Virus record (IMG/VR): IMGVR_UViG_3300029319_000132
Span: 1 to 40,732 of that record
Origin: a virus
Length of the DNA: 40,732 nt
Direction: 5' to 3' (one strand)
The translations under genes and the position numbers were made by a program. The stretch's first letter is position 1, and each line of letters starts with the position of its first letter. The notes under the pieces were generated by a model, which did not search any database, was not told the origin of the DNA, and saw only the letters and a program-made list of their open reading frames with translations. Of the stretch, positions 1,617 to 38,436 are shown piece by piece.

Positions 1617-1618
1617 CA

Positions 1619-2131
1619 ATGGATTTTGCAAAACTTTGGAATACTATAGAAACTTTCGTAGACCCTGTTGCTGATTTTTTGCTTGGGGAAGATGTCTACG
1701 ATGACGACGCTGTGAACGTAGCTAGTAAAAAATCACGTTCTGGCGGGTTCTTGGGTGATCTTCTGGGCAAGGGTGCAAAAGCATACATTGACTTGAAGGA
1801 TTCTGAAGATGATCCTAATTTTGCTGCCACACAATTTCAAGCTCCCAAAATAACTAGATACAGACCTACCCCTCCTAGTAGTCCCGGAGGAGCCACCCCC
1901 ATGCGAGGTCCTGTAGGTTCTACTGATCCACGTGTGCAGCGTCTCTTCCAGAACGCGAGACGAGGACGTGCATATGCCAATCCTGATATGAACGCATTTG
2001 GTAGAAACGTGCGCGTTGCTATGAATTTGCGACAGGGTCGTCTTACACAAACTGTAGAAAAGGCGTCCGTACCGTCTGTAAAAGAGGCCGCTCCAGCACA
2101 AGTTCGTAAACACTCAAAGGATGTGACGTAA
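1619..2131 (+). CDS. Hypothetical protein of the virion gene block
   Basis: A 170-residue protein counted from ATG 1619, three bases after the stop of the preceding gene; a GTG seven codons upstream would overlap that gene and is less likely. The N-terminus (MDFAKLWNTIETFVDPVADF) is amphipathic, residues 45-65 are Gly-rich, and the middle is Pro/Ser-rich and probably disordered (PTPPSSPGGATPMRGP). The C-terminal third is Arg/Gln-rich and basic. No known domain is recognised. Its last base is shared with the next start (TAATG), so it is coupled to the virion genes on both sides and is probably a small structural or assembly protein. Confidence 0.7.
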   Translation: MDFAKLWNTIETFVDPVADFLLGEDVYDDDAVNVASKKSRSGGFLGDLLGKGAKAYIDLKDSEDDPNFAATQFQAPKITRYRPTPPSSPGGATPMRGPVGSTDPRVQRLFQNARRGRAYANPDMNAFGRNVRVAMNLRQGRLTQTVEKASVPSVKEAAPAQVRKHSKDVT

Positions 2132-2688
2132 TGTCTGAAACAGATGCACAGGTTCGCGGCAGAGGTTCCATAGAAAATTTAGACCCCTTTGCATACGCTC
2201 CTCCGGGCCACTCCTTGACCCAAGATAATTCTCGTTGGCCGTGGGGAAAACCACCCCGGGATGTCGATCCGGAGAAAGCACTTAGTCGTGCTTTGGATGG
2301 TCTAGAAAAACCTGCCGTCATGGAGGAGATGACAAAACTTCTTCTTGTCGGCGTGTCCGTAGAAACTCTTGTTGAGGGCTTTCTTCTGCAAGGCTTTCAA
2401 GAGGGTAAATTTACACCAGATGTTGCGGTTCTGATAAAGCCTGTTCTCGCTCTTATGATCGGAGAGATGGCTGAAGACGCTAATATACCGTTTCGTATGT
2501 TTGAGAATGACAATGCAGGGGAGGAGGGCAAGATGGACGAGCGAACCTTCTTCCGTATGATGAGAGAAAATAATCCGCGCATGTTTGAGTATATACGCGA
2601 AAAGGTCAACTCGCAGATTCGTGAAGGAAACATACCCCGCGAACCTGAAGAAGAGACCTTCCTTGACATGAAGGGAGATCAAGAATGA
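2131..2688 (+). CDS. Conserved marine-phage virion-associated protein
   Basis: A 185-residue acidic protein. An N-terminal Pro/aromatic segment with PPGHSLTQDNSRWPWGKPPR (residues 24-43) precedes helices containing VEGFLLQGFQEGKFTPDVAV (about residues 81-100). This pattern, a Pro-rich 'PGxSLT..WPW..PP' entry followed by helices, is one I associate with conserved structural proteins of cyanophages and other marine phages. No enzymatic motif is present. It overlaps its neighbours by 1 nt upstream and by 4 nt downstream (ATGA), which places it in a tightly coupled virion operon. A role as an internal virion or connector protein is inferred from position only. Confidence 0.72.
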   Translation: MSETDAQVRGRGSIENLDPFAYAPPGHSLTQDNSRWPWGKPPRDVDPEKALSRALDGLEKPAVMEEMTKLLLVGVSVETLVEGFLLQGFQEGKFTPDVAVLIKPVLALMIGEMAEDANIPFRMFENDNAGEEGKMDERTFFRMMRENNPRMFEYIREKVNSQIREGNIPREPEEETFLDMKGDQE

Positions 2689-17980: not shown

Positions 17981-19221
17981 CAGTAGTATACTCCCCTGTG
18001 TACATCGATGTGACAAGTCTCCATGCCGTGCCAGCCGTTAATCTTGTTCTTCGATATGCAGATGTGGCGCACCGTGTTCTCCTCTTCAGAAGTTCCGGTC
18101 TTGCCGATACCTATGATGACATCTGCCTCACCAGCCTTACCGGTCTTCGAGTTGTCCATCATGTTGTAGTCAATAAATTGACGGTCATGTCCGTCGTTTG
18201 ACGCCTGACTGACAGCCCACACAAGCAACTTGTTACGCTTGGCAACCTCTCGGGCAAGAACATATATTTCTTTGAGGCGCTCGTCGCCCCGACTGAAGTT
18301 GCCGTCAACCCGGAACTTGTCAAGCTGATCACAGAACATCACGTCCGGTTGATTTAGCTGTGCGTAGTCATTCAATTCATCCATCGACATACCCACAGCG
18401 TCCATGACCGTCAGGTAGGGGTCCACCTCTGCCATGTACCTGTCGTTGAGTTCGTCGGATGCCGACTGCATCTCTGCCTTCGTCTGTGCAAAGTATGCCT
18501 GAATGATGCGCGTCTTTATCTTGTCGGCACGTTCCTCATTTGCCCAGTACACAACCTTTTGTTTTTGCTTGATATACTGAGAGGCAGTAAATGCACAGAA
18601 AGTTGTCTTGCCCGTTTCTGGTCGGGCAAAGATGATACCCAAGTTGCCACGGTCCATCCCCGGCAACCTGCTGGAGATGATGTCCCAGTCAAAAGGGAAG
18701 TCGGGATCACCAGCTTCGTCCTCCAAGAGTTCTGACAGACCCTTCGTCACTTCTGTGTATGTGGTCTTGTCAGACATGCGCCCATCCTCGACCATGTCGA
18801 TCAGGGTCTTGAGTTCACCGAAATGTTCTGACTCGCCGGTAAAAATGGCAATAGCCTTCTCACCTATCTGACGCGCCCTGTCACGAACCCAGAAGTTCTT
18901 GACTACGTCATACTCTAGGTCCTGCGTGTCAGAAACCTGACTCGGCAGCGTGTCAATTATTTCGTAAATCTCGTGCATAGCAGAGGCTGGCATGGCAGGA
19001 TTACGATCCGCCACGACTGCCGCTAACTGGCGGGGATGCAGGTCTGTCTTGTAATTCTGATGTGCATACTTGATGGCGTCATACAGAGTGACATGGCGTC
19101 CCTCGAACATGTCGCGAGTGATGATGTTCTTCACGCGCTCGTCGTAGAACTTGAAGTTCAGTAGGTAGCCGAGAACCTGTGTCTCAAGTGATGTACTTGT
19201 CGAAAGTGTGCTTTCGCTCAT
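17980..19221 (-). CDS. DnaB-type replicative helicase
   Basis: A 413-residue RecA-fold helicase. The N-terminal 150 residues are helical and resemble the DnaB N-domain (SLETQVLGYLLNFKFYDERV). The Walker A loop is IFARPETGKTT (about residues 197-207) with Glu where most have Gly or Ser-Val. This is followed by YWANEERADKIKTRI, Walker B PDVMFCDQLDKF (Asp298), and a C-terminal core with LLVWAVSQAS. It would unwind DNA ahead of the polymerase and associate with the primase encoded upstream, whose end it overlaps by 38 nt. The start at 19221 has a GAAGGATATGACAGACG leader with a suitable GAAGGA. The helicase is separate from the primase, unlike the fused T7 gp4. Confidence 0.92.
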   Translation of the reverse strand: MSESTLSTSTSLETQVLGYLLNFKFYDERVKNIITRDMFEGRHVTLYDAIKYAHQNYKTDLHPRQLAAVVADRNPAMPASAMHEIYEIIDTLPSQVSDTQDLEYDVVKNFWVRDRARQIGEKAIAIFTGESEHFGELKTLIDMVEDGRMSDKTTYTEVTKGLSELLEDEAGDPDFPFDWDIISSRLPGMDRGNLGIIFARPETGKTTFCAFTASQYIKQKQKVVYWANEERADKIKTRIIQAYFAQTKAEMQSASDELNDRYMAEVDPYLTVMDAVGMSMDELNDYAQLNQPDVMFCDQLDKFRVDGNFSRGDERLKEIYVLAREVAKRNKLLVWAVSQASNDGHDRQFIDYNMMDNSKTGKAGEADVIIGIGKTGTSEEENTVRHICISKNKINGWHGMETCHIDVHRGVYY

Positions 19222-19990
19222 CGTCTGTCATATCCTTCACGTCTTTATCTAAGATAACTAAGCTGGTTGGCCGGATGGCCTGTAGTCTGCGAACCAAGTC
19301 TAGTGCCTTCTTTGTGGCATCTTTGTCAAGTGCTACAATTAAGCGGTCGTAGGTTCGCAGCGTGGGTATGTGGGATTCCAGAAGGCTGGTGCCGAGCAAG
19401 GCTACTCCTGAAAGAATATTAAATACACTGCAAGCAGAAGCACAGTCTTCCAAAAGAACAGCGGTACGGCTCCTGCCGCAAATGAAAGGACGACCTGATT
19501 TTCCATATCTCCACCATTTCGGTTTCATCTGTTGATCTAAGGCTCGACCTGCTGCATCGACAACCCTGTTGTTGTGCCGGATGAGATACACCACACGATT
19601 ACTGCGGAAGTCATACCGAATATCAGCCAAGCCGTTGCGGTATGCTTCATAGGCGTTCACTCGACGAACGTAGGCTTCTGCCTCGGGTTGCCGGGACAGC
19701 GACACAAACGTGTCTGGCAGTTCGAAGTCAAGAAAAGTATTGGTAATGGAAAGAGGTTTGGTAGTGTTGTTCTTCTTGAGTAGTGGATGTAAGGGAGTAT
19801 CTTTGCGGATACGAAACCCCGTGCGTCCACGAACATCACAGTCTGCATGAAAGCAGTACCACAACCGCTCACCATTGACTTCCGACACGCTGAATGTATT
19901 CTTCTTGCCACAAGACGGGCAGTCCATGCGGAGGTTGCCTGAACCACCGATGGGCAAGTCTTCAACAAGTTCTTTGATCCAAGAGGTCAT
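19184..19990 (-). CDS. DNA primase (zinc finger plus TOPRIM-type core)
   Basis: A 268-residue primase synthesising RNA primers at the fork. An N-terminal zinc finger is visible: CPSC at 24-27 and CFHADC at 46-51. The TOPRIM-type core shows AVLLEDCASA (Glu181) and IVALDKDATKKAL (Asp222, Asp224), the acidic residues that bind metal. It is the first gene of the leftward block, with helicase, exonuclease and polymerase following in overlap. ATG 19990 begins MTSWIKELVED, a usual phage primase opening; an upstream ATG at 20008 has no better ribosome-binding site, so the start is uncertain by six codons. I could not identify a convincing promoter for it in 19991-20100. Confidence 0.9.
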   Translation of the reverse strand: MTSWIKELVEDLPIGGSGNLRMDCPSCGKKNTFSVSEVNGERLWYCFHADCDVRGRTGFRIRKDTPLHPLLKKNNTTKPLSITNTFLDFELPDTFVSLSRQPEAEAYVRRVNAYEAYRNGLADIRYDFRSNRVVYLIRHNNRVVDAAGRALDQQMKPKWWRYGKSGRPFICGRSRTAVLLEDCASACSVFNILSGVALLGTSLLESHIPTLRTYDRLIVALDKDATKKALDLVRRLQAIRPTSLVILDKDVKDMTDDERKHTFDKYIT

Positions 19991-20040
19991 GGACAACGAG
20001 TACACCATACAGGAAACTCAGTCAACAACAAAAAAATTAC

Positions 20041-22503: not shown

Positions 22504-22749
22504 ATGAAAAAACGAATCCACATAAACCAGCACGTCATCCGCGCCAACAAAAAGAATGGCACGAATGACCCGGCGATCACTGTTAAAACATCCAGAAACA
22601 ATTACTACGCTAACCGTGTGGAAATAGGCGGACCATCGTCCGTTGTATATTCACCGGACAAGCCGCTTTCATGTGGTGCGCGTGTATGGGTGGAAACTGA
22701 CGATACGGTAATGATCTACACCGGCGACGATATAAAGGTGGTGGCATGA
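22504..22749 (+). CDS. Conserved small phage protein of the accessory island
   Basis: An 81-residue protein starting MKKRIHINQHVIRANKKNGT at ATG 22504, behind the leader GAAAGGAACCGCT. The pattern 'KKRIH.NQH.IRAN...G...P.ITVKT..N.YA..V.I.GPS.VVY.P..PLSCGARVW.ET' is one I recall from hypothetical proteins of actinobacterial and rhizobial phages, where it is strongly conserved. It appears to be a compact all-beta fold. It overlaps the next gene by 4 nt (ATGA), so it is coupled to the DUF7178-like protein, its likely partner. Function is unknown. Confidence 0.78.
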   Translation: MKKRIHINQHVIRANKKNGTNDPAITVKTSRNNYYANRVEIGGPSSVVYSPDKPLSCGARVWVETDDTVMIYTGDDIKVVA

Positions 22750-22765
22750 CAAAACAGGCCACGCT
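22746..22765 (+). repeat. Island repeat box B (at a start codon)
   Basis: ATGACAAAACAGGCCACGCT, 20 bases, the only copy with one extra base. The ATG is the start of the DUF7178-like gene, so boxes B and C bracket that gene exactly. Confidence 0.8.
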
Positions 22766-23363
22766 AGTCGATCATCAAAGAATGATCCACAACATCACCG
22801 GCGTTTATCTTGATGCTGACAAAACGCAACACGCGGAAGGTCTCGTCTGGTACGAAAACGCACAGAAGGCGGCGTATCATATCGCGGTAAAATATGACGT
22901 GCCGGTTTATCTGGTGGTGGCCGTCATCGCCGCGCTTTCACCTAACAACAAATGGTCACGCAACCTGACAAACGCCGACGCTCTGATCGGCGCGTTTATC
23001 CGGGGCGACGGCATGGATTCCGTCAAGGTCTCGACCTATCACAAGATGAAGCAGAAAGCATGGGACATTTTGGCGGCGCGTCCGGGATACGATACAGCAA
23101 AAATCATGTTAAAGGGCCAGAAAATCACGTCGTTTTTCATGGATATCATGGGCGAGTTCAACGTGACAATCGACGGCCACGCACGAAACATTGCTTACGG
23201 TGAGCGCGTCGGATTGACTGACGACCGGACAAACATCGGCGTCCGCGAATACCGAGCTTTGCAAGCCGCATATGAGGCAGCAGCGGAACAGCTCGGTCTC
23301 ATGCCGTACCAGCTACAGGCGATCACTTGGCGCGTCTGGCGCGACCGGCACGGCATCAAATGA
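22746..23363 (+). CDS. DUF7178-like protein with helix-hairpin-helix glycosylase-like features
   Basis: A 205-residue basic protein. Residues 55-78 (AVIAALSPNNKWSRNLTNADAL), the segment KAWDILAARPGYD, GQKITSFFMDIMG and TIDGHARNIAYG are the landmarks I associate with the DUF7178 family of phage proteins. The order of helices, 'iaalSP...W..N...A' then 'K...F...i.G......iD.ha', is also reminiscent of the helix-hairpin-helix DNA glycosylase fold, but the catalytic Asp/Lys set is not evident. It is bounded by near-identical boxes at its start codon and stop codon, and it overlaps the preceding gene by 4 nt. A DNA-binding or base-recognition role is a guess from fold resemblance. Confidence 0.8.
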   Translation: MTKQATLVDHQRMIHNITGVYLDADKTQHAEGLVWYENAQKAAYHIAVKYDVPVYLVVAVIAALSPNNKWSRNLTNADALIGAFIRGDGMDSVKVSTYHKMKQKAWDILAARPGYDTAKIMLKGQKITSFFMDIMGEFNVTIDGHARNIAYGERVGLTDDRTNIGVREYRALQAAYEAAAEQLGLMPYQLQAITWRVWRDRHGIK

Positions 23364-23626: not shown

Positions 23627-24628
23627 ATGCTTGATCTTGTAACGACGAACGCCACCGACGCTGCTATCCGCAGGGGTGATGAAATATATGCTATCCACAA
23701 CAACCCGGCAGACGTGAGCCTGTTGGAGAAATTTGCAAAGGTGGAGCGGGTGCCGCTCGAAGCCGGATGTCCTGCTCCGTGGAACGATGCGGACATAATG
23801 ACGAACCGACCCGTCGAGGGTTATTCCGCATTGTATAACCGGGCAACCGATAGCCTTCTGGATGTCCGGCCAGTGTCCCGGCACTATGCCCTAATTCCAC
23901 ATGATACGCTCTTTGCGAAACAGGCCGAGCTGCTGGCGGCGTCTCCGCTGCCGAGCGATAACGTCACCGTGACTGATCGAATCTATGGCTATGGTAAACG
24001 GGTGCATCGCACTGTGGTTTTCCATGACCTTAACACAGAGACCCGGACCCGGACCGGCAAGCCTGACCGCGTCGAGTGTCGCATGGACATTTTCAACAGT
24101 GTCGATCTGTCATGGGCCTTTCAGGTTTTCTCGGGAGCCTACCGGGACCTTTGCCGGAACTCTTTGGTATTCGGCGGCGAGAAATCCTACCATCAACGCA
24201 AAATCCACAAGGGGCATATATCGATCGACGCCATGATTGAAAAGGCATCAATGGGCCTTGATATGTGGACGAACAACCGGGACCAGATGGAAATCTGGCG
24301 GAATTCCCACTGCTCGGAATTCGACTTTCAGCGGATGTTAAAGCAATCGATCTGCCGCAAGAATACCCGGGCGGCAAAGCACGACGAGACGCTTGCAATC
24401 AACGAAAGCAAACTGAACTGGCTGCTCGAGCGGTTCAAGGAAGAGACGCCCGAATTGGGGACGACCCTGTGGGCGGCTTACAACGCCTTGACCCACTACG
24501 CCACCCACCTGCCGGGAACCCAGACGCGAAACGCTAACAAGGAACTGGTGGCGACCCGGCGCAATGACGAGGTGCGGGCCGTGATCGGTTCTAGCTTCTG
24601 GCGGGGCCTTGAACGGTCTGCGGCATAG
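23627..24628 (+). CDS. DUF932-family protein
   Basis: A 333-residue protein of the DUF932 family, found in phages and plasmids. Family landmarks visible are an early segment with VRPVSRHYALIPHDTLF (about residues 86-103), a central part with RVECRMDIFNSVDLSWAFQVF and YRDLCRNSLVFGG, and the helical region IEKASMGLDMWTNNRDQMEI. The family's biochemical role is unsettled; members often sit near nucleases, antirestriction genes or CRISPR loci. ATG 23627 follows the leader GAAAGGAACCGCC, matching 15 of 16 bases of the leader at 22491. It is the largest gene of the GC-rich island and looks intact. Confidence 0.9.
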   Translation: MLDLVTTNATDAAIRRGDEIYAIHNNPADVSLLEKFAKVERVPLEAGCPAPWNDADIMTNRPVEGYSALYNRATDSLLDVRPVSRHYALIPHDTLFAKQAELLAASPLPSDNVTVTDRIYGYGKRVHRTVVFHDLNTETRTRTGKPDRVECRMDIFNSVDLSWAFQVFSGAYRDLCRNSLVFGGEKSYHQRKIHKGHISIDAMIEKASMGLDMWTNNRDQMEIWRNSHCSEFDFQRMLKQSICRKNTRAAKHDETLAINESKLNWLLERFKEETPELGTTLWAAYNALTHYATHLPGTQTRNANKELVATRRNDEVRAVIGSSFWRGLERSAA

Positions 24629-26099: not shown

Positions 26100-26294
26100 A
26101 TGTTCGAAGCAATGTTACTGGTTTGTGCCCTAGCAACCCCCGACAAGTGCGTCAGATTCGACGACACACGCGGTCCGTACCAGACATACGAGCAATGTAA
26201 GGAGCGTTCGTACGAAATGGCGGAGGGTGTTGCCCAAATGTTTCCTGTTCCGGCTACCTACAGCTTCAAATGTATAGAAAGAGACTTCACATGA
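26100..26294 (+). CDS. Small exported cysteine-containing protein
   Basis: A 64-residue protein behind GCAAGGAGAATTTTACCC. The N-terminus (MFEAMLLVCALATPDKC) is a short hydrophobic export-like segment. Four cysteines are spaced along the chain (CALA, DKCVRF, YEQCKER, FKCIERD), suggesting disulphides in the periplasm. Layout resembles the exported protein at 20399. It is the first gene after the late promoter and overlaps terS by ATGA, an unusual place for such a protein. Function is unknown. Confidence 0.68.
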   Translation: MFEAMLLVCALATPDKCVRFDDTRGPYQTYEQCKERSYEMAEGVAQMFPVPATYSFKCIERDFT

Positions 26295-26695
26295 ACCTCT
26301 TACCGCAGCAAAACAACCGTAAACCCGCCCTCACAGAGAAACAGGAAGCCTTTTTGGACGCCCTGTTCGACAATGGCGGCAACATACGGGCTGCAGCGGA
26401 GGTTGCTGGCTATGCAGAAGGCTCTATCAAGTGGCTCAAAGACCGCTTGGCCGACGAAATCATTGATCGGACCAAAACCGTGTTGGCGGGACAGTCCCTC
26501 AAGGCCGCGAACAAGCTAGTAAGCCTCGTAGACGCCCCTGACATCGAGCGCGGTGACGATCTGCGGATGAAAGCAGCCGAATCTGTTCTGAACCGCGTAG
26601 GTCTTGGCAGACAAGAGACCCTGAACCACAACGTACAGGCGGTTCACGGCGTTGTCCTGCTGCCGCCCAAGAAAGAAGTAGTCATAGATGGCTAG
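26291..26695 (+). CDS. terS: Terminase small subunit
   Basis: A 134-residue protein from ATG 26291 that probably recognises phage DNA for packaging. ALTEKQEAFLDALFDNGGNI followed by RAAAEVAGYAEGSIKWLKDR (about residues 17-55) is the helix-turn-helix of terminase small subunits. The next region is a helical oligomerisation segment (LAGQSLKAANKLVSLVD), and the tail has VVLLPPKKEVVIDG. The gene overlaps terL by 8 nt, the standard arrangement. The assignment rests on the motif, size and neighbour. Confidence 0.86.
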   Translation: MNLLPQQNNRKPALTEKQEAFLDALFDNGGNIRAAAEVAGYAEGSIKWLKDRLADEIIDRTKTVLAGQSLKAANKLVSLVDAPDIERGDDLRMKAAESVLNRVGLGRQETLNHNVQAVHGVVLLPPKKEVVIDG

Positions 26696-28424
26696 TAAGC
26701 CACGTAAACGCGTCCTAGTCCCACCTGACCCGGCGACTGTGGACAAGCCGCGAACTCGCGGCAGACCCAAGAAAGACCCGAACCAGCCCAAGGCTGAGTA
26801 CAAGCTCAGTGACAGGGAGCGGGCACGACGTTCCGTCCAGATGCGTCTTCGTAATGCGAAGAAGTCGGCAGCTACCCAGCAACAGAAAGCCGAATACAAA
26901 AAGAAAAAAGTAAAAAAGCTGACACAGTCAGCAGACAAGATAGAGAAGGCACTACAGGGTGAAAAAACTAGAGTCGTTGATCAAGGGGATTTGGAACACC
27001 TACCAAGCGCAGTGGGAGACCTTGTTGATGGTAGCCCAGTTATCTTTCAGCCAAATCCGGGACCTCAAGAAGAATTTCTTAGCGCGTCTGAGCAAGACGT
27101 ACTCTACGGCGGTGCTGCCGGGGGCGGTAAATCTTTCGCTCTCTTGGCCGATCCTCTGCGCTATTGTCATAACCCTAATCATCGTGGGCTTCTTCTTAGG
27201 CGTACTCTCGACGAACTAACAGAACTTATCGACAAGTCGAAACAATTATACCCGAAGGCATTCCCGGGAGCTACCTTCCGTGAGTCGAAGTCTACATGGG
27301 TTTTCCCCTCTGGTGCAACCATGTGGTTCACCTATCTCGACAGGGATAAGGACGTAACCCGCTTTCAGGGACAGGCATTCAACTGGATCGGCATAGATGA
27401 AATTACTCAGTATCCTTCGTCCTATGTCTGGGATTACCTGCGTTCTCGCCTTCGTTCTACTGATCCTGAACTCCAGCAACAGTTGTGCATGCGCTGCACA
27501 GCCAACCCCGGAGGAGTGGGTGGTTGGTGGGTCAAGAAGATGTACATTGATCACCGCGAACCAAACAAGCCTTTTGGTGCCTACGATATAGAAACTGGAA
27601 AGACGTTTGTGTGGCCCGACGGTCACAAAAAAGCAGGTCAGCCGCTGTTCTACCGCAAGTTTGTTCCTGCGCGGCTGACTGATAATCCCTACCTGATGGC
27701 AGACGGCCAGTACGAGGCCATGCTCAGGTCGCTCCCGGATGTCGAGCGTAGACGACTCCTAGAAGGGGATTGGGACGTGGCGGAGGGAGCGGCCTTCCCC
27801 GAGTTTTCGAGGTCTAGACATGTGGTCGAACATTTTGAACTTCCAACCAACTGGCCCCGTATTCGTGCGGCGGACTACGGCTACGCTAGTCCTTCGTGCG
27901 TTCTGTGGGGGGCTATTGACTGGGATAATAATATCTGGGTTTATCGCGAACTATATGCTAAACACTTGACAGCCGAGCAACTCGCTGATAAAATACTAGA
28001 AGCAGAAGAGTTAGACCCACTACCACACTACAACGTCCTAGACTCTTCTTGCTGGAATAAGACAGGCTTCGGTCCGTCCATTGCAGAGACAATGATGCGG
28101 GCTGGTGTTAGGTGGACTCCTTCGGACCGCAACCGTCTACAAGGAAAAATGGAAGTTCACAGGCGGCTTGCTGATGACCCCTACACCAACGAACCTCGTC
28201 TACGAATATTCTCTACGTGCAAGCATATCATAGCACAACTATCGGGCATACCTCTCTCCAAAACCAACAGTGAAGATGTAGACACGAAGGCAGAGGATCA
28301 TGCGTACGATGCGTTGCGCTATATGCTTATGACGCGCACGTCGGGATACAATTCTATACACAAAACACTTCAGGGCATCAAGGATCAGGCGTTTAGGCCG
28401 ATGGATGCTACATTCGGTTATTGA
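26688..28424 (+). CDS. terL: Terminase large subunit
   Basis: The packaging motor and nuclease, 578 residues. The ATPase shows Walker A YGGAAGGGKSF (about residues 140-150), Walker B WIGIDEI (233-239) and the coupling segment CTANPGG. The C-terminal nuclease has AADYGYASPSCVLW (Asp396) and DTKAEDHAYDALRY (Asp537 region). An N-terminal extension of about 110 residues, rich in Lys, Arg and Gln (RARRSVQMRLRNAKKSAATQ), is longer than in most terminases and probably disordered or a coiled coil. It acts at the portal to pump DNA into the prohead. The stop overlaps the next gene's ATG (TGATG). Confidence 0.97.
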   Translation: MASKPRKRVLVPPDPATVDKPRTRGRPKKDPNQPKAEYKLSDRERARRSVQMRLRNAKKSAATQQQKAEYKKKKVKKLTQSADKIEKALQGEKTRVVDQGDLEHLPSAVGDLVDGSPVIFQPNPGPQEEFLSASEQDVLYGGAAGGGKSFALLADPLRYCHNPNHRGLLLRRTLDELTELIDKSKQLYPKAFPGATFRESKSTWVFPSGATMWFTYLDRDKDVTRFQGQAFNWIGIDEITQYPSSYVWDYLRSRLRSTDPELQQQLCMRCTANPGGVGGWWVKKMYIDHREPNKPFGAYDIETGKTFVWPDGHKKAGQPLFYRKFVPARLTDNPYLMADGQYEAMLRSLPDVERRRLLEGDWDVAEGAAFPEFSRSRHVVEHFELPTNWPRIRAADYGYASPSCVLWGAIDWDNNIWVYRELYAKHLTAEQLADKILEAEELDPLPHYNVLDSSCWNKTGFGPSIAETMMRAGVRWTPSDRNRLQGKMEVHRRLADDPYTNEPRLRIFSTCKHIIAQLSGIPLSKTNSEDVDTKAEDHAYDALRYMLMTRTSGYNSIHKTLQGIKDQAFRPMDATFGY

Positions 28425-30187
28425 TGGCAAAGAATCTTCAAACAGGTGCAAGTTATAAACCTCTCGCGGAAACTCTTGACCCGCGAATTGCTACTCTGCG
28501 TGACATCATAGAAGCTCATGCAAGTAGGTCTACTGTGAAAGATGGTGCCCAAACTTTCATATCCGCTTTTACAGGCAAGACTCAATTTGCCCCTATTTTT
28601 AAAGACTATCTAGATCGTCCTGCAGTAGACTTCGTAGAGACTTTTGCAGATGACGAAACAAATCCTCTCGTAAAAGTATACGAGAAAAATGAAAAGGTCA
28701 ATCCCCGTCGGGACATGTATTCTCGCGTGGGTGCCATAGAATTTCACATCAAAGATCAGCTTACTCGTGTAGGAGCTTTGGAAGAATTGTTTCCTGAAGG
28801 TATGCCTATGGCTACCGATAGGGTTGTTCGTCCGGACAAGCCAAAAGCAAAAGCACGTCGTTACAGTTACAATCCCGGTCTCATGGGAGAGTGGCTCACC
28901 GCACTAGATGAATACGGTCGCAAAAATCCAAAAGACATTGGCATCGTAAAAGCCCTAGAGGCACAAGCGCATATGGGATTGCGTACGGGAGAGATTATGA
29001 ATGCCCCAGCGAGTGCTTTTGTCCCTCCTGAAAAACGCAGTGCATCGTGGGGATTTTTTCTTGACACGGATACGCCGGGCGTCAAGATGGATGAAAACTT
29101 AAACATTGCAGTTGGTCCTCGCACATATAACATTTTACAACATGCACTTAATGTGAGTCCAGCGAATGATCGTAATCTTTTTGTAAATCCTAACGGTTCT
29201 CCTATTGGAAAGGGGGAGATGACCCGCGTTGCCAAGCTGATCAAAGTTCCCGGGATTATGACTGACGAACTTACGGGGCAAAAGCTAGACAATCTTCAAG
29301 AAGCATATGATCTTCGTCGCATGTGGGTGACCTTGGCTCTTAATGAGTTCCCGGGACAGGGAGACAGGGTTGGTGCGGCTCAAGGTCGTGCCGTTGGTGC
29401 GGTCACTAAAGGCGGTGGTGCAGTCAAGGAGTATTATTCGCCTAGTCGAGGTTTTTACGGAAAAGAAGCCACGACTGTGCCGAACGTCATGGACGAGTGG
29501 TTATTCGAGGCCCGTACAGAAGAACTTCCCGCCGCCTCTCGCCCGCCAAAAGGACAGCGTGTTTCTTACGCTACGGATTTTGTAGTTAGTGATCCTGTGT
29601 TTGAGCCTGCTGATGCCCCCATCAAAATGGGAGACTTGACGGCACGTTACGTTGAACCTGCGCCAAAGACAGAAGTGATACGCCCGGACAAACCTCCGAC
29701 AGTTTCCGAGCCTACTCCTACAGTCACTACAGACTCCCCTGATCCCAAGTCCATGAACGACCTGACTCCCGAGCTACAAGAAAAGTTAGGCAAGGGCGGG
29801 TTTGACTTGGATGCGTTCCTCAAAGGTGTTGGTAAAAAAGTGGGTGTCGCCGCTCTCATTGAAACAGGAAGACAGTTTGTTGAGGCCCCTCTTGAAACAG
29901 GCGCAGCCTTGGCTCAAGAGTATGGCATGGAAGCGGCAGCACTTGCGGCACGGGCACCCGCCTCAGTTGCGGCGGCTGTTCCTATGATCATGCAGCCGAC
30001 CGCTATCACAGGCGGCGAAATGACTCCGGAAGCACGGATGGAAGCTGCAGCTATGGAACCGGCTAACATGCTCGATGAAAGCACAGAAGATATGGAACGG
30101 ATGGCAATCGCTGATGCCGGATTCGTTTCACGAAACAGGGAACCTGAAACCTCCCCTGCCCCCGAAGCAGGTTTCATCACTCGTTAA
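28424..30187 (+). CDS. Virion-cluster protein with a tyrosine-recombinase-like domain
   Basis: A 587-residue protein encoded between terL and portal. Residues 150-345 follow the integrase pattern: AQAHMGLRTGEIMN (Arg187, box I), a Lys in TPGVKMDENLNIAVG, RTYNILQHAL...DRNLFVNPNGSPI, EAYDLRRMWVTLAL in the place of HDLRRTFAT (Tyr295, Arg298), and VKEYYSP (Tyr337/338). The first His of box II is Tyr and the LGH motif is degraded, so activity is uncertain. Residues 60-140 could be a core-binding helical domain. The C-terminal 240 residues are Pro-rich, then Ala-rich and hydrophobic (residues 505-545), ending DAGFVSRNREPE...EAGFITR, similar to tails of the other virion proteins. It is coupled to terL by TGATG. 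It could be a virion-borne recombinase or a structural protein that reused the fold. Confidence 0.72.
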   Translation: MAKNLQTGASYKPLAETLDPRIATLRDIIEAHASRSTVKDGAQTFISAFTGKTQFAPIFKDYLDRPAVDFVETFADDETNPLVKVYEKNEKVNPRRDMYSRVGAIEFHIKDQLTRVGALEELFPEGMPMATDRVVRPDKPKAKARRYSYNPGLMGEWLTALDEYGRKNPKDIGIVKALEAQAHMGLRTGEIMNAPASAFVPPEKRSASWGFFLDTDTPGVKMDENLNIAVGPRTYNILQHALNVSPANDRNLFVNPNGSPIGKGEMTRVAKLIKVPGIMTDELTGQKLDNLQEAYDLRRMWVTLALNEFPGQGDRVGAAQGRAVGAVTKGGGAVKEYYSPSRGFYGKEATTVPNVMDEWLFEARTEELPAASRPPKGQRVSYATDFVVSDPVFEPADAPIKMGDLTARYVEPAPKTEVIRPDKPPTVSEPTPTVTTDSPDPKSMNDLTPELQEKLGKGGFDLDAFLKGVGKKVGVAALIETGRQFVEAPLETGAALAQEYGMEAAALAARAPASVAAAVPMIMQPTAITGGEMTPEARMEAAAMEPANMLDESTEDMERMAIADAGFVSRNREPETSPAPEAGFITR

Positions 30188-30202: not shown

Positions 30203-30415
30203 ATGAGCAACTATAACTTTGGTGCTGCATACATTATGAATTCACCGAACACTTCGGTCGATGACGCAATGGGTTCAGACCAGTTGTACCGTGAGGGACT
30301 TGAGTTCGATACCAAGACCGCACAGGGTGTTCTGACAGAGGATATGCCGAAAAAAATGACTAAAACGGCTGTCGATCCTGCTGTCATGCGTATGGCTGAA
30401 GAACGCGATTACTAA
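30203..30415 (+). CDS. Small hypothetical protein of the packaging cluster
   Basis: A 70-residue protein starting MSNYNFGAAYIMNSPNTSVD behind GGGAGAAGACCA. The sequence is polar, with a helix around DQLYREGLEFDTKTAQGVLT and a basic stretch PKKMTKTAV. It lies between the recombinase-like gene and portal, four bases from portal. Size and position suit a head-completion or portal-associated factor, but no family is recognised. Confidence 0.75.
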   Translation: MSNYNFGAAYIMNSPNTSVDDAMGSDQLYREGLEFDTKTAQGVLTEDMPKKMTKTAVDPAVMRMAEERDY

Positions 30416-30418
30416 AAT

Positions 30419-32545
30419 ATGTCAGAAGATAATTTTCTCCAACCAGCGGACGACACCGCTGTAGGTCTGCTCAATCCTGAAGAGCAGATGCCCGGGCTTG
30501 CTGGCTACGTTCAGCGCAAGTTCGAGGATTCTGAAAATGGCCGCTATGCCCACGAGCAACGCTGGCTACAGTCCTACAAGAACTTCCGTGGCATCTACGA
30601 CTCGACCACCCAGTATCGCGACTCGGAGCGGTCACAGGTGTTTATCAGGATTACCAAGACGAAAGTTCTTGCAGCCTACGGCCAGATCGTTGACATCTTG
30701 TTTGCGAACAAGAAGTTTCCGCTCGTCGTTGAGTCCACTCCCGTGCCAGAAGGCATCGCGGAGTTTGCTCACATGGAGACTCCCCTCGACCAAATCGACC
30801 AGCAGGACCCCTACGGCTTCGCTGGAGACGGTCGAGAACTTTTGCCGGGTGCCCTACAGGCCGAGGACTCAAAGGCGTTCCTAGGGGGCTTACAGGGCGA
30901 ATACGGGCAACTTCCCTTGCAAGAGGGGCGGGCACGTATGGGTGAACCCCAGATCGAACCGGCAAAGATTGCGGCTCACCGCATGGAGAAAACTATCCAC
31001 GACCAGCTTCTCGACACAAGTGCCGTAAATGTGTTGCGAAGTTCTATCTTCGAATCGTGTCTTCTGGGCACGGGCATCGTAAAGGGTCCGTTCAACTTCT
31101 ACAAGCGCATGCACCGCTGGCAGCGCGACGAGACGGGTGAGCGGGTTTACATGCCAGAGGAAAAGACGGTGCCCCGCATCGAAATGGTTTCTGCATGGGA
31201 CTTCCATCCGGACCCGTCAGCAACCAGCATCGACGACTGTGAGTACGTCATCGAACGTCACCGCATGAACCGCCAGCAACTCCGCGCTCTTATCAAGCGT
31301 CCCTACTTCATGGCCGACGCAATCGAGGAGTGCCTTGCAAAGGGGCCGAACTACGAAGACAAGTATTACGAAGACACCATCCGCGAAGACGAGACCGAGC
31401 CATACTATCAAAGCAATCGATACGAGGTCTTGGAATACTGGGGCGTCTTGGACTCCAAGCTGGCATACGATGCGGGTCTCGAAGGCTCCGACAAGATGTC
31501 AGAGTTCGACGAGGTGCAAGTCAACGTCTGGGTTTGTGGTGGCATGGTCATTCGCTGTGTCCTCAACCCGTTCACACCAGCCCGCATCCCGTATCAGGTG
31601 TTCCCATACGAAGTCAACCCCTACCAGCTTTGGGGCGTTGGTGTGGCCGAGAACATGGAAGATGCACAGAAGCTGATGAACGGCCACGTTCGTATGGCTA
31701 TCGACAATCTCGCTCTTGCTGGCAACCTTGTCTTTGATGTTGATGAAGCCAGCCTTGTGCCGGGACAGAACATGGACATCTTCCCCGGAAAGATTTTCCG
31801 TCGTCAGTCGGGTGTGACAGGCACGGCTATCAACGGCCTCAAGTTCCCGAACACTGCCGGTGAGAACTTGCAGATGTATCAGATCAGCCGCCAACTGGCA
31901 GACGAAGAAACAGGCATACCGTCCATCGTACACGGACAGACAGGGGTAACAGGAACCGGACGAACAGCCGCAGGTCTATCGATGCTGATGGGCAGTGCTG
32001 GCTTGTCGATGAAGACAGTTATCAAGAACATCGATGACATGCTTTTGAAGCCGCTGGGCGAAGCATACTTCCAGTGGAACATGCAGTTCAATGAAGATGC
32101 AGAAGACATCGTAGGTGATCTTGAAATCAAGCCACGCGGCGTAGCCGCAGTCATGCAGAAGGAGGTCCGCACACAGCGACTCACCTCTCTGCTGCAGACT
32201 GTCGCCAACCCCATGCTGGCACCCTTCATCAAGATTCCAAACCTTATGCGCGAACTGGCGATTTCACAGGACATCGATCCTGACAGTCTCGTCAACGATG
32301 CCAACGAGGCACAACTCTACGCGCAGATGCTGAAAGGGCTGATGGCAAATGTACAACAAGGAGCAAGCGAAGCTGCTGGGGCCGCTCCTAGCGAAGCCGG
32401 AGATATGGGCGGGGCTGGAGGAGTACCTCCAACTCCTGAAGGAACAGACCTTCAAGGGTCTGGTAACGGCACAATCGGAGTCGGAACTGCGCCAACTGCA
32501 GGGGAAAGCGGCTTTACTGGAAATGCTCCTCAAACTGAAGGATAA
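30419..32545 (+). CDS. Portal protein
   Basis: A 708-residue portal, the dodecameric ring through which DNA enters and leaves the head. Recognisable parts are the N-terminal segment RYAHEQRWLQSYKNFRGIYD, ITKTKVLAAYGQIVDILFAN, WDFHPDPSATSIDDCEYVIE, LWGVGVAENMEDAQKLMNGH and TGTGRTAAGLSMLM, which follow the order I know from podovirus portal families. The C-terminal 65 residues are Gly/Ala/Pro/Thr low complexity (GAAPSEAGDMGGAGGVPPTP) and coincide with a second gene in another frame. The ribosome-binding site is weak, so translation may be coupled to the preceding gene three bases away. Confidence 0.93.
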   Translation: MSEDNFLQPADDTAVGLLNPEEQMPGLAGYVQRKFEDSENGRYAHEQRWLQSYKNFRGIYDSTTQYRDSERSQVFIRITKTKVLAAYGQIVDILFANKKFPLVVESTPVPEGIAEFAHMETPLDQIDQQDPYGFAGDGRELLPGALQAEDSKAFLGGLQGEYGQLPLQEGRARMGEPQIEPAKIAAHRMEKTIHDQLLDTSAVNVLRSSIFESCLLGTGIVKGPFNFYKRMHRWQRDETGERVYMPEEKTVPRIEMVSAWDFHPDPSATSIDDCEYVIERHRMNRQQLRALIKRPYFMADAIEECLAKGPNYEDKYYEDTIREDETEPYYQSNRYEVLEYWGVLDSKLAYDAGLEGSDKMSEFDEVQVNVWVCGGMVIRCVLNPFTPARIPYQVFPYEVNPYQLWGVGVAENMEDAQKLMNGHVRMAIDNLALAGNLVFDVDEASLVPGQNMDIFPGKIFRRQSGVTGTAINGLKFPNTAGENLQMYQISRQLADEETGIPSIVHGQTGVTGTGRTAAGLSMLMGSAGLSMKTVIKNIDDMLLKPLGEAYFQWNMQFNEDAEDIVGDLEIKPRGVAAVMQKEVRTQRLTSLLQTVANPMLAPFIKIPNLMRELAISQDIDPDSLVNDANEAQLYAQMLKGLMANVQQGASEAAGAAPSEAGDMGGAGGVPPTPEGTDLQGSGNGTIGVGTAPTAGESGFTGNAPQTEG

Positions 32546-32573
32546 CCACGAGGCTATAATCAAGAATGGCTGA
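32349..32573 (+). CDS. Small helical protein nested in the 3' end of the portal gene
   Basis: A 74-residue protein read in a different frame within the last 197 bases of the portal gene and extending 28 bases past the portal stop. The sequence (LLKEQTFKGLVTAQSESELR, then QLQGKAALLEMLLKLKDNH) is an orderly amphipathic helix pair, of a type I recall as a small conserved protein encoded after portal in podoviruses ('RQLQG.A..L..LL'). In contrast, the portal frame here is low complexity. Its stop overlaps the next ATG by 8 nt (ATGGCTGA), and its start is ATGTACAACAAGGAG. These points support a real overprinted gene, perhaps a portal-tail adaptor or assembly factor. Confidence 0.75.
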   Translation: MYNKEQAKLLGPLLAKPEIWAGLEEYLQLLKEQTFKGLVTAQSESELRQLQGKAALLEMLLKLKDNHEAIIKNG

Positions 32574-35184
32574 TCGTCTGTTTCTTTTTGATGATGATGA
32601 TACTGACACGGAAGTAACTCCCTTCCGGTTCACGGGACAGCGCGGGCTGAGTGTCGAAGACTATGAAGGTGGTCGAGTTAACTTTGGTAGTCAGTTCCTA
32701 CAGTTGCCAGACCTAGAAGCACAGACAGGTATCGACGTAGACCCTGATGAAGACATCACGGAGTTGGCGGAGCCTGCAAAGCGAGAAGAAGACGACGATC
32801 CGAGCGATGTCCTTAGTGGCACACTAAATGTCCCACTCTTCGGGGGCGCAGAGGGACAGGTACGAGAAGGCACTGAGGTTACATTTTACGATGACTTCAG
32901 GATTAACACCACAGGTGGGATATTCGACTCCTATTCAGACTACTTGAAGTCCGAATCTCAACTGGCTGACAGGGTCAATCTGGTTCAGAACCTCATCGAA
33001 CCGGCTTTTACAGATAGAGAAATACAATTCGGAGAAGCTGTCAAGAAAACGGGTGAACAAACAGGAAGACAGATCGGTGAAGAAGTTGCTGAAACACCGT
33101 CTCGTTTTGAAAGACTCATCAAGGGAGAACTTGACGCAGAGGATTCGGCGAAGCTGGCTGGCGGGGCGATGGCTTTAGCAGGAGCGGCCGGTGCTGCAGG
33201 AAGCACCCTCATCGGGGGCAAACCAGTCAGGAATGCCTTTGGCAAGAATAGTTTCCGTCCTGCTGGACTTTTAGGTCTTGCAGCGGACATGGTTCACTCA
33301 ATTCAGTACGATCACCTGAAACAGATACGCGCCGTGAGGGCTGCGAACTTTCCGGTGTATGATTCCGCCCTTGGCAGAATGGTGGCACCTAAAGGTGTGG
33401 ACACAGGCTTTGCCATGACCATTGGCAACTACGGTATCACCCGCGCACCCGGGGGCAGGAGCTACACCGGCAACACTCGGGGCATGAACATCGATCAGCT
33501 TGTCGCTTTGGAAGCTATCAGCAAGGGCTACGATCCCGGCAACAGCGCAGGAACCAACGCCTTCAACTCTGCTAAGTTTGGGACAGTTGAAGAGCAGGGC
33601 GGCATGTTCATATCCGACAACAAGATGGCCGGTTTCTTTCGTCCTAACGGCAGTTTCTACGATCCGCGCTTTGGAAGGTCGGGAGCATACTCCACACAGA
33701 AACAGGCAGAGACAGCGGCGAAGACAGCCGGTGTTAGTTACGATCAGTTCCAGAACGCACTTGCTCAAGCAAGAAGCGGTAAAGTCACTCTTCAACAAGC
33801 CCTTACAAGCATCAAGGCTGCAGAGGCAGCAGCGCAAAGAGCCGCAGAACAAAGGTTGAAAGACCAGCAGGCAGCAGAACGTGCGCGGAAATTGCGGGAA
33901 GAGCGGGAAGAACGTCTACGGAAAATACGAGAACGAGATCAAAAAGCGCAAGCAGAGCTACGTCAGCGTCAACAAGAAGCTGCCGCTGCTGCAGACGCCG
34001 CTGCTAGAGATAGAGATAGAGATAGAGACGAGGATGGTGGTCCCTCTGGAAATGAGTACGGTTTTGACAGCGGTCAATCTTTTGGCGTCGGGTCTTCAGG
34101 AGGATTTGCCGGTGCCCTTGCAGAAGGTGGCCGTGTCGGTCTTGCAATGGGTGGCGCACCCCGCGTGGCATCTGGCTTTGTAGACCGTCCGCCTGATCAA
34201 GTACCTGAAGATCAGACTGTCGCAGACAATCGCCCGACTCAACTGCCCGAGGGCGCGTTCGTTATCAACGCTGCAGCAGCCGAGTTCATGGGAACCTCTG
34301 ATGTTCGCAAGATGCTTATAGACGCGCATGAAGAAGCACTTAGACGCGGAATAGTAGTTGACAAACGAGGAAACGGTGCTAAACTAATAGACGTGGCGAT
34401 TTCTAGCGGCGAAGTCGTGGTCGCTCCTCACCTTGCTAAAATTATCGGCTATGATCGCCTGAACAAGATCAACAATCGCGGCATGGCCGAAACCCGCGAA
34501 CGTATCCGCGAGAACGGTCAGGATCAAGCCCCGGCAACAATGCAGGCTGCTACGGGCATGTTGATTTCAGGACAGATGGTAAAACCTACGCTGACGCAAC
34601 AAGACTTGCGTGAGCAGGGTTTCCTCTCCCGAGAATATCCTGCGATGCCGGATACCCCTATTCCATCTCGGGATGAAGACACCTACTTCGGCTACCGCTT
34701 TGGCTCTATCAAAGACGCTATCAAGAGTGTCGAAATCAAAGGGTTCGAAGACAATCCCTTCATCTTCACTGGTGTTCGCAAGAAGGGTGGCAAGTCTTCT
34801 TCTGCCTTTGGCCCTATGCAGATAACGTCAAGCACCCTACGTGATTTCAAAGAACGCAGTCCTGAATACAATTTTCTAGACGATTCCGGTAAGAAATACG
34901 TAGATGACTTGATACAGCAGGGCGATGATAAAGTCAACATTGATTTGTATCAAAAGATTTACAGAAATAAAAAAGCGCAGCCCACGTCGAAAGAAACTAA
35001 GCAGAAGTTCGGACGCTACGGGCAGGGCGTGATTCCAAGAGAGGCCCATGAAAAACACTACAATGTAGTGGCAGACATGGTTCTTCGACTCAAATTATCA
35101 GATCACGAGAACATCAGGGATGCAATAGCCTCGTATGGAGAGGGTTCTGCATACGCGAATAAAGTTCTCAAAAGTCTGGAATAA
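32566..35184 (+). CDS. Large virion protein with C-terminal lytic-transglycosylase-like domain
   Basis: An 872-residue protein. An acidic N-terminus (FDDDDTDTE) is followed by a mixed region and a Gly/Ala-rich stretch near residue 200. A long Ala/Arg/Glu coiled coil (about residues 415-490) ends in RDRDRDRDED, encoded by an AGAGAT microsatellite. Then come AEGGRVGLAMGG and SGFVDRPPDQ. At the C-terminus, VEIKGFEDNPF (Glu723) and SSAFGPMQIT (about 745-755) match the catalytic Glu and the S.AxGxxQIT motif of soluble lytic transglycosylases, with SYGEGSAYANKVL near the end. It probably degrades peptidoglycan during DNA entry from within the virion. The gene overlaps the nested gene by 8 nt. Confidence 0.82.
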   Translation: MADRLFLFDDDDTDTEVTPFRFTGQRGLSVEDYEGGRVNFGSQFLQLPDLEAQTGIDVDPDEDITELAEPAKREEDDDPSDVLSGTLNVPLFGGAEGQVREGTEVTFYDDFRINTTGGIFDSYSDYLKSESQLADRVNLVQNLIEPAFTDREIQFGEAVKKTGEQTGRQIGEEVAETPSRFERLIKGELDAEDSAKLAGGAMALAGAAGAAGSTLIGGKPVRNAFGKNSFRPAGLLGLAADMVHSIQYDHLKQIRAVRAANFPVYDSALGRMVAPKGVDTGFAMTIGNYGITRAPGGRSYTGNTRGMNIDQLVALEAISKGYDPGNSAGTNAFNSAKFGTVEEQGGMFISDNKMAGFFRPNGSFYDPRFGRSGAYSTQKQAETAAKTAGVSYDQFQNALAQARSGKVTLQQALTSIKAAEAAAQRAAEQRLKDQQAAERARKLREEREERLRKIRERDQKAQAELRQRQQEAAAAADAAARDRDRDRDEDGGPSGNEYGFDSGQSFGVGSSGGFAGALAEGGRVGLAMGGAPRVASGFVDRPPDQVPEDQTVADNRPTQLPEGAFVINAAAAEFMGTSDVRKMLIDAHEEALRRGIVVDKRGNGAKLIDVAISSGEVVVAPHLAKIIGYDRLNKINNRGMAETRERIRENGQDQAPATMQAATGMLISGQMVKPTLTQQDLREQGFLSREYPAMPDTPIPSRDEDTYFGYRFGSIKDAIKSVEIKGFEDNPFIFTGVRKKGGKSSSAFGPMQITSSTLRDFKERSPEYNFLDDSGKKYVDDLIQQGDDKVNIDLYQKIYRNKKAQPTSKETKQKFGRYGQGVIPREAHEKHYNVVADMVLRLKLSDHENIRDAIASYGEGSAYANKVLKSLE

Positions 35185-36189: not shown

Positions 36190-37164
36190 ATGGCTTTTGG
36201 TACTGCTGCAGGTTATGGTAACCTGCCTTCCGGTAACTTTACACCGGAAATCTTTAGCCAAAAGGTTCTCAAATTCTTCCGTCGCGCTTCGGTTGCAGAA
36301 GATATTACGAATACCGACTACGCTGGCGAAATTGAGAACTTTGGCGACACCGTCCGCATTATCAAGGAGCCGACAATCACCGTCTCCTCGTATACTCGCG
36401 GCTCGGTAGTGAACGCACAAGACCTTGCTGACGATCAGATCACTATGGTGGTCGATCAGGCAAACGCCTTTTCGTTCAAGATTGACGACATCGAAGAGCG
36501 TCAGTCTCACGTAAACTTCGAAGCACTTGCGACTTCTTCGGGTGCATACTCCCTGAAGCGTAAGTACGACGCTAACGTCCTCGACATCATGGCGACTGAC
36601 GCAGGTCTCAATGGTGAAACCACTGCTGCCACTACCCAAATCTCGGGTATCGGTACGCTCGGTTCTGCCCTTGACATCGGTGGTGCATCTAGCCCCGGCG
36701 ATACTGCTGTCAACACCATGCTGAAGATGGCAGAGGCACTCGACAACGAATCGGTTCCGGAAGAGAACCGCTGGTTCGTTGCTCCCCCAGCATTCTACAA
36801 GCACCTCTTCTCGGCTGGTGCGAAGTTCGCAGAAGTTCAGGTAACTGGCGATGCGACTTCCCCGCTGCGTAACGGTCTTGTTTCGCTGGGCAACATCGCT
36901 GGCTTCCAGTGCTACAAGTCCACCGCCCTCGTATCGACCGGCGGCACGGATCAGGTAACGCTGACTGGCCTTGCTACGGACGGCTCTGAGAACGTGATTC
37001 TCGGTGGTCACATGTCCTCAACGGCTACCGCTTCGCACATTGCGAAGACCGAGGTTGTCCGTTCGACTGAAACCTTCAGCGACATCGTTCGCGGTCTGCA
37101 TGTCTTTGGTCGGAAAGTTCTCCGTCCGGAAGCCATCGTCCGTGGCGTTGTTAGCCTCGACTAG
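36190..37164 (+). CDS. Major capsid protein
   Basis: A 324-residue protein behind a strong AAAGGAAGGACAGACCA ribosome-binding site. Segments such as NFTPEIFSQKVLKFFRRASV, ENFGDTVRIIKEPTITV, SFKIDDIEERQSHVNF, RWFVAPPAFYKHLF and PLRNGLVSLGNIAGFQCYKS follow the order of P22-like/HK97-fold coat proteins of podoviruses. The C-terminal part has GGHMSSTATASHIAKTE. Codon use is visibly biased to GC-ending codons, as expected of a very highly expressed gene. It forms the icosahedral shell around the scaffold and portal. Confidence 0.93.
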   Translation: MAFGTAAGYGNLPSGNFTPEIFSQKVLKFFRRASVAEDITNTDYAGEIENFGDTVRIIKEPTITVSSYTRGSVVNAQDLADDQITMVVDQANAFSFKIDDIEERQSHVNFEALATSSGAYSLKRKYDANVLDIMATDAGLNGETTAATTQISGIGTLGSALDIGGASSPGDTAVNTMLKMAEALDNESVPEENRWFVAPPAFYKHLFSAGAKFAEVQVTGDATSPLRNGLVSLGNIAGFQCYKSTALVSTGGTDQVTLTGLATDGSENVILGGHMSSTATASHIAKTEVVRSTETFSDIVRGLHVFGRKVLRPEAIVRGVVSLD

Positions 37165-37706: not shown

Positions 37707-37749
37707 CAGGAATCCCCTGCCGGGGTAAACCCCTAGAGGAGTGTTCCTG

Positions 37750-38436
37750 ATGAACTACATCACAAGTAATGTGCCGTATTTTAAGGCGTGGGTGCGGCGC
37801 GAGTATACAACAAATCACGACAGATATCATGGTGAATTCTTACATGCCATGATCATCGGTGTAACCACCCTGCCTATGCGTACCCTGTCTTTTCAAGTTC
37901 TATTTACGGGTTGCGAGGAAGATGAAAACGTACACGGCGGAGCGATGTGGGCGCGTATGCCCCTCACAGCCTTAGTAGGGGATACACCCTTAGATGAGTG
38001 GCCTGAACCTATACCTACTTATCTGGCACAGCCGTGGGACTGTCAGTCACATCACCACTCAGTATTTGTACTCAACAGAGGCACACCGTGTCCGTGGCTG
38101 GCTAAGATAGACGGAGAGTTCTATCCGGCTAAGTATTACTTCACTGTAGACTACACAGACACTGAAGTAGCGGACGATCCAGCACAACACAAGCAGAGTC
38201 ATGTACTCGAACTGCTAGACGCTGGCAAGTGGACAGGCAACATGGTTGCCCTTCCTAATAACCGAGTCAGGGTAACTAACCCTGCGTGGTTTGTAACGGG
38301 CGACGGCCCGCCGGATTTCACTCCTAGTCAGTGGGTCCATCATTCAAAGCAAGACCCGAACTACGTCAGTGATACGGCACGGGTATTCGACAACCTCTAT
38401 GCGGAGAACAGTTATGAAGAAGATGATGAAGAGTAA
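37750..38436 (+). CDS. Conserved hypothetical virion-block protein
   Basis: A 228-residue protein from ATG 37750, nine bases after AGAGGA; a GTG three codons earlier lies too close to the box. It has an aromatic and His-rich middle (CQSHHHSVFVLNRGTPCPWL, KYYFTVDYTDTEVADDPAQH) and a C-terminal part with WFVTGDGPPDFTPSQWVHHS and an acidic end. I associate this with a conserved protein of marine podo- and pelagiphages whose role is unknown. The GAMWARMPL and AQPWD segments suggest a beta-rich fold. It is the first gene after the terminator and promoter, and overlaps the next gene by 23 nt. Confidence 0.75.
   Translation: MNYITSNVPYFKAWVRREYTTNHDRYHGEFLHAMIIGVTTLPMRTLSFQVLFTGCEEDENVHGGAMWARMPLTALVGDTPLDEWPEPIPTYLAQPWDCQSHHHSVFVLNRGTPCPWLAKIDGEFYPAKYYFTVDYTDTEVADDPAQHKQSHVLELLDAGKWTGNMVALPNNRVRVTNPAWFVTGDGPPDFTPSQWVHHSKQDPNYVSDTARVFDNLYAENSYEEDDEE

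Follow-up and report, generated by a model that had tools for sequence, protein, structure and literature searches.

The stretch of viral DNA analysed here, positions 1 to 40,732 of IMG/VR record IMGVR_UViG_3300029319_000132 (the window), raises the question of why a tyrosine recombinase gene should lie between the genes for the terminase large subunit (terL) and the portal protein, and what its product might do there. The window is a 40.7-kb contig from the broad HMO-2011-type podovirus group, probably less than a whole genome, and its portal shares 45–52% identity with the portals of HTVC033P, HTVC115P and HMO-2011. The gene (28424–30187; all positions are on the plus strand unless stated otherwise) encodes 587 amino acids (aa), and its ATG overlaps the terL stop codon (TGATG); the coordinates and the coupling to terL given in an earlier note on this DNA were thus right. 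An in-frame TTG at 28421 was disregarded as a start because relatives begin at the ATG at 28424.

Taken alone, the window protein gave a weak profile match to the phrog_1 integrase (E 0.011) and no integrase match in a Pfam search, whereas the family profile was significant: a profile of 35 recombinase cores matched the PDB integrase 3nkh (E 4.8e-7) and XerH (E 4.8e-4). The first IMG/VR scan yielded 13 loci (cited by L numbers), six of which (L007–L009 and L011–L013) matched the tail only and differed in their N-terminal parts; the four of these six that were scanned gave E values of 1e-4 to 1e-3 with PF00589 and of 1e-6 to 4e-4 with phrog_1. PF00589 was matched at E up to 0.1 by 24 of 35 relatives in one set and by 3 of 10 members in another, the scores seen being below 27.1 bits except for one relative at 27.5, and the window member gave no match. 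An AlphaFold model of the window protein, built with 42 relatives, had 10-residue means of about 77–97 for residues 11–320 and below 50 at 325–334, near the candidate nucleophile. Foldseek comparison of this model revealed matches to XerH (7e-5) and lambda Int (4e-4), and also to 3nkh, Tn1549 Int, TelA, Flp and Cre, with a probability of 1.00 for XerH, lambda Int and Tn1549 Int, and the top matches in a viral library were phage integrases. The model of a divergent subgroup (A3) matched Cre with a probability of 0.97–1.00 (E 1.5e-3). Matches to the IbpA Fic protein in the PDB profile search covered the N-terminal half only and were taken as spurious, and an ordinary structural protein with chance motifs was ruled out by the fold, the profile and the invariant active site. 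The tyrosine-recombinase fold proposed in the earlier note is therefore upheld by the family profile and the Foldseek probability; by AlphaFold and Foldseek, the recombinase core, with its N-terminal helical and catalytic domains, occupies residues 1–345 (28424–29458).

The residues of the R-K-x-R-x-Y set, previously described as lying in integrase order and at roughly integrase spacing, are all present when numbered from the ATG at 28424: R187 (catalytic Arg I, in GLRTGE; 28982–28984), K221 (in GVKMD, between strands 210–213 and 226–229, the beta-hairpin Lys; 29084–29086), Y295 and R298 of the box II sequence Y-D-L-R (29306–29317), and Y337/Y338, the nucleophile being assigned to Y337 of KEYYSP (29432–29434). 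In a full-length alignment of 42 sequences, the only invariant columns were M1, R187, R298, Y337 and G583. Among 103 distinct cores, each of at least 400 aa and grouped at 45% identity into about 23 types, 102 have Arg I, 102 have Arg II and 92 have the hairpin Lys, and cores without the aligned Tyr carry one a few residues away, except for one truncated sequence and one with Lys (A3 group). The first position of box II varied among Y, S, A, R, K and T, and the A3 group showed the pattern R-K-[STKG]-R-H-Y, with His in 26 of 26. The LGH motif, reported as lost, is more plausibly present as a QGR variant: R322 of AAQGRA (29387–29389) aligns with the LGH His/LTWR region of relatives, which have MGH, LQGR or LTWRP there. 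By type, this box III region holds His in the L007 type as well as in the A3 group, whereas the L012 type has W-R and the window QGR. Structural matches and the alignment suggest that R187, K221, R298 and Y337 cluster in an active site. Between-type core identities were as low as 10–25%, and since both Arg residues and the Tyr persist across such divergent cores, catalysis, which the earlier note had left open, looks to be under selection in the family and is likely kept.

The position of the gene proved to be a property of the whole clade. Counting loci that carry both terL (at least 77% identity) and portal, the terL–portal interval was at least 1.5 kb in 110 of 110, and in nearly all of them an open reading frame (ORF) of 500–777 aa begins no more than a few bases from the terL stop. 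In the controls, by contrast, terL abuts portal in 75 of 80 loci of the HMO-2011 group, and the gap in the HTVC033P group holds small ORFs only. The location in the packaging/portal cluster noticed in the window is thus a slot that is filled clade-wide and absent as such in two sister clades. Breakage of assemblies at the slot was considered and rejected, as contig ends show no concentration there. The wider group is common, with at least 600 matches in one scan; no match was found in the isolate phage collection to the window protein or to five other core types, and the clade is a large, uncultured marine and estuarine phage group. Three further loci may be recorded. The slot ORF of L122 (5989–7891) is broken by a frameshift after about 90–140 codons, which reflects either a sequencing error or a decaying allele. 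In Sinorhizobium phage phiM6 (L017:4250–5857), a protein annotated as SGNH/GDSL hydrolase lies directly before portal, so the terL–portal interval can house other genes. A contig of a Blastopirellula-labelled metagenome-assembled genome (MAG; L114:6747–9338) has a terL interrupted by some 300 aa that resemble an intein, with portal directly after it and no recombinase.

Comparison of closely related phages revealed that the working half of the recombinase is swapped wholesale between near-identical phages, and that the tail end is kept. L002 and L029 are 99.5% identical at the end of terL and 99.3% at the start of portal, but only 28% in the core; L036 and L038 share 98.3% in terL, 97.0% in portal and 98.3% in the tail, with cores that are not alignable past 46 aa; and L041/L043 and L048/L049 likewise have near-identical backbones with unrelated cores. 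The window itself is 97% identical to L008 as far as 28427, immediately after the ATG, carries an unrelated core, and is 96.5% identical again from 29718. In the compared pairs of this kind, homology ends at the start codon, and the point where it returns differs from pair to pair, lying within the tail or at its end. The same tail and portal are found in L345 and L346 with two different cores, one of window type and one of L036 type, and the converse case is seen in L011/L022, whose cores are 95% identical on backbones that differ more (terL 89%, portal 82%). On the terL tree, the 23 core types need 62 changes, against a mean of 75.5 and a minimum of 69 for shuffled labels. Core DNA had a lower GC content than the neighbouring terL at all loci measured, with a median difference of 5 points. 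Neither this exchange of alleles nor the fixation of the slot throughout the clade could be seen from the window alone. A second short segment without homology to L008, to which the window is otherwise 96–97% identical, was observed at window positions 33823–34126, inside the gene for an 872-aa virion-type protein.

The retained tail module (residues 431–587, 29714–30184) is mostly predicted to be disordered, with a predicted local distance difference test (pLDDT) score below 50 for residues 479–587; Ala, Gly, Pro and Glu are abundant in it, and it includes a moderately hydrophobic, Ala-rich stretch. The Pro/Ala-rich virion-type tail with GFVSR and GFITR motifs described earlier is real, with GFVSR at residues 566–570 (30119–30133) and GFITR at the C-terminus, residues 583–587 (30170–30184; G583 invariant, F584 at least 90%), but it is not private to this gene: the module is 97% identical in L007–L009, where it sits on an unrelated core. 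GF followed by a small or hydrophobic residue occurred within the last 12 aa of 49 of 66 distinct proteins, against 0.94 in shuffled sequences, an excess that relatedness inflates. Four GF[VIL]xR motifs were counted in the window, two in the recombinase tail and two (GFVDR and GFLSR) in the 872-aa protein, the only other window protein with this motif among those checked, against 0.37 expected; this excess is a hint only, because the motif was chosen after being seen. Homology of the tail to other virion proteins was rejected, as there was no significant alignment and only the short GF[VIL]xR in common, and a 38-nt direct repeat between the tail and the 872-aa gene was compatible with chance. 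Ten IMG/VR matches to the tail were, among the frames read, recombinase fusions, with no other kind of domain.

HMO-2011-type phages have an ordinary integrase. In HMO-2011, an integrase of about 300 aa lies directly upstream of the primase, and phrog_1 finds an ordinary integrase in 6 of 6 HMO-2011-type records (HMO-2011, CRP-2 and four relatives) at E < 1e-35; these canonical enzymes diverge in step with terL (44–92% identity). The int gene of HMO-2011-type phages is located upstream of the replication module, and CRP-3 is able to integrate (PMC9038755). The window and 13 long clade contigs, which are possibly incomplete, yielded no second integrase; only the slot gene matched, and some of the clade contigs gave no tyrosine-recombinase match at all. 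A recent move of the canonical int from its HMO-2011 position was considered, but the profile comparison with the slot family was not significant, and direct descent is therefore not established.

We tentatively favour the reading that the slot encodes a late-made, possibly virion-carried, active recombinase of exchangeable specificity with an integration or circularisation job at entry, although as a whole this falls somewhat short of probable. A catalytically competent enzyme would be made together with the late genes; its N-terminal 345–430 residues would bind a specific DNA site and cleave it, and its C-terminal 160 or so residues would form a flexible tail docking it to the virion or to an assembly partner. 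The virion would then probably carry the recombinase and eject it with the genome, allowing recombination at entry without new gene expression, and the likely job would be that of the canonical HMO-2011 integrase, site-specific integration into the host, or else circularisation of the genome on entry. Populations of these phages would circulate many cores of differing specificity, exchanged by homologous recombination through terL, tail and portal. We infer late expression, packaging and ejection, which the earlier note also proposed, as well as the differences in specificity and the target DNA. Gene position, the conserved tail and the weak motif shared with the 872-aa virion-type protein suggest late synthesis and virion docking, the active site suggests strand exchange, and the missing second integrase suggests the task at entry. 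Given an active enzyme, packaging is close to evenly balanced, and a role in integration or circularisation is possible but a little harder to maintain. More doubtful still is the broader proposition of a clade-wide, virion-delivered modular recombinase, in which an interchangeable specificity core is joined to a conserved docking tail and the target changes by the swap of one cassette.

Several observations weigh against this reading. The window holds no inverted repeat of at least 22 nt and no att/lox-like or palindromic site, nor any long palindrome in its 40.7 kb, a length that probably falls short of the complete genome; it contains no tRNA fragment by Rfam, so no tRNA-type phage attachment site (attP) was seen. 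A synonymous-site scan for an att site embedded in the gene showed no clear constraint, nothing exceeding the shuffled 95% limit apart from two marginal windows (codon 25 in the L038 group, 0.87 vs 0.86; 0.97 in the L061 group, at the limit). Nor was an attP found next to the gene or travelling with it: on either side of a swapped core the sequences are homologous again immediately, and the core brings no flanking site over about 10 kb, which is unusual for an integration cassette. No HTH_3 repressor scored above the cut-off in 16 records, whose contigs are possibly partial, and no prophage of the clade was found in 84,980 GTDB species genomes, among which the host may be unsampled; the GTDB search gave one MAG contig with 53% terL identity, which lacks the slot gene. 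In addition, most PF00589 scores lie under the gathering cut-off, and the tail shows no overall similarity to other window proteins. One contig joins the slot gene to bacterial DNA: L037 (7091–7764) matches L005 at 99.7% identity across terL and the initial 60 codons of the slot gene, and past about codon 60 continues into a bacterial yejE/yejF operon (a yejE-type ABC permease and yejF) with a GC content of 32.6%, against 48% for the phage part, both sides appearing to share CAAAGATT. Such a join could stem from integration within the recombinase gene or be a metagenomic chimera, and the chimera is favoured by the difference in GC and by the join being seen only once.

The same observations bear on what else the protein might be. 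It is unlikely, though it deserves serious thought, that it is a plain phage integrase moved beside terL, intracellular and unpackaged, whose tail affects only stability or partners: no other tyrosine recombinase was found in the clade contigs whereas HMO-2011-type relatives have one, CRP-3 of the same broad group integrates, and swapping of integration specificity among related phages is known generally, but the position in the packaging operon, the lack of an attP found beside the gene or moved with the core, the failure to find an HTH_3 repressor or a prophage, and a conserved extreme C-terminal motif that is docking-like rather than catalytic all argue the other way. The diversity of cores, about 23 types scrambled relative to terL and far beyond that of the canonical int, which tracks terL, could reflect an arms race in which the recombinase acts on DNA other than its own attachment site, such as host or competitor-phage DNA, and a fixed place beside terL with no site found in the phage would also suit this or a resolution of multimers in packaging. 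Yet no target is known, cutting of concatemers is normally the task of the terminase, and a universal packaging role would need no such number of cores; we regard this as quite unlikely.

Loss of catalysis, with the recombinase fold now serving a structural or ejection role, as the earlier note had also considered in part, would fit the structural-gene neighbourhood, the virion-like tail and the variable first residue of box II, but is spoken against by the two Arg and the Tyr in essentially all of the 103 cores, at identities down to about 15%, and the Lys in 92, which makes it very improbable. Scarcely credible is a protelomerase or a DNA invertase of the shufflon or phase-variation kind; TelA is among the weaker Foldseek matches, but XerH and integrases are stronger ones, and neither a long palindrome nor an inverted pair of at least 22 nt is present in the window.

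Along the window, the plus-strand order is terS, terL, recombinase ORF, 70-aa ORF, portal, 872-aa protein and capsid. The small terminase subunit (26270–26695, PHROG) precedes terL (26688–28424; PHROG 5e-63), which forms the 5' flank of the swapped cassette; the 70-aa ORF (30203–30415), with a similar-sized counterpart in most relatives, separates the recombinase from portal (30419–32545; PHROG 1.8e-80), the 3' flank, and is followed beyond portal by the 872-aa virion-type protein (32566–35184) and the major capsid protein (36190–37164; PHROG 1.1e-62). The minus strand encodes primase, helicase, DNA polymerase and ribonucleotide reductase, and no integrase was found upstream of the primase (19184–20008, minus strand), unlike in HMO-2011. 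A 231-aa ORF in the late cluster (37741–38436) was labelled ferredoxin by PHROG (E 1e-24) and had no Pfam match at 0.01, and DUF7178 and DUF932 proteins lie between the replication and packaging modules (22746–23363 and 23627–24628). Five plus-strand ORFs at 273–9359, one of 1548 aa, had no PHROG match at 0.001, four of them also having no Pfam match at 0.01; they are probably tail or ejection proteins.

A literature search, with subscription papers and preprints outside it, found no late, virion-borne or tail-fused tyrosine recombinase of such kind. A phage integrase is ordinarily produced from the genome that has just entered the cell; if the favoured reading is true, integration or circularisation would come before any gene expression. 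Since nature here offers a range of unrelated recombinase cores joined to a single tail and backbone, these could also be used as specificity modules whose loading tag is portable. The slot protein resembles XerH, lambda Int and Tn1549 Int (PF00589) in fold and in the set, order and spacing of R-K-x-R-x-Y, but differs from them in its disordered virion-type tail of about 160 residues, its place between terL and portal and, in the window member, a box III of QGR instead of LGH. The canonical HMO-2011-type integrase (YP_008320271.1; CRP-2, CRP-3) is likewise a phage tyrosine recombinase of the same broad group, but has about 300 aa and no tail, tracks terL and, in HMO-2011, is encoded upstream of the primase. 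Phage P1 Cre, which the A3-group model matches, circularises incoming DNA at lox and offers a possible working parallel for recombination at entry; Cre is not known to be a virion protein or to bear a comparable tail, and no lox-like site was found in the window. Mu gpN, which protects and circularises DNA non-covalently, and the T7 internal proteins are not tyrosine recombinases, but they are late-gene products delivered with the DNA, as the slot protein may be.

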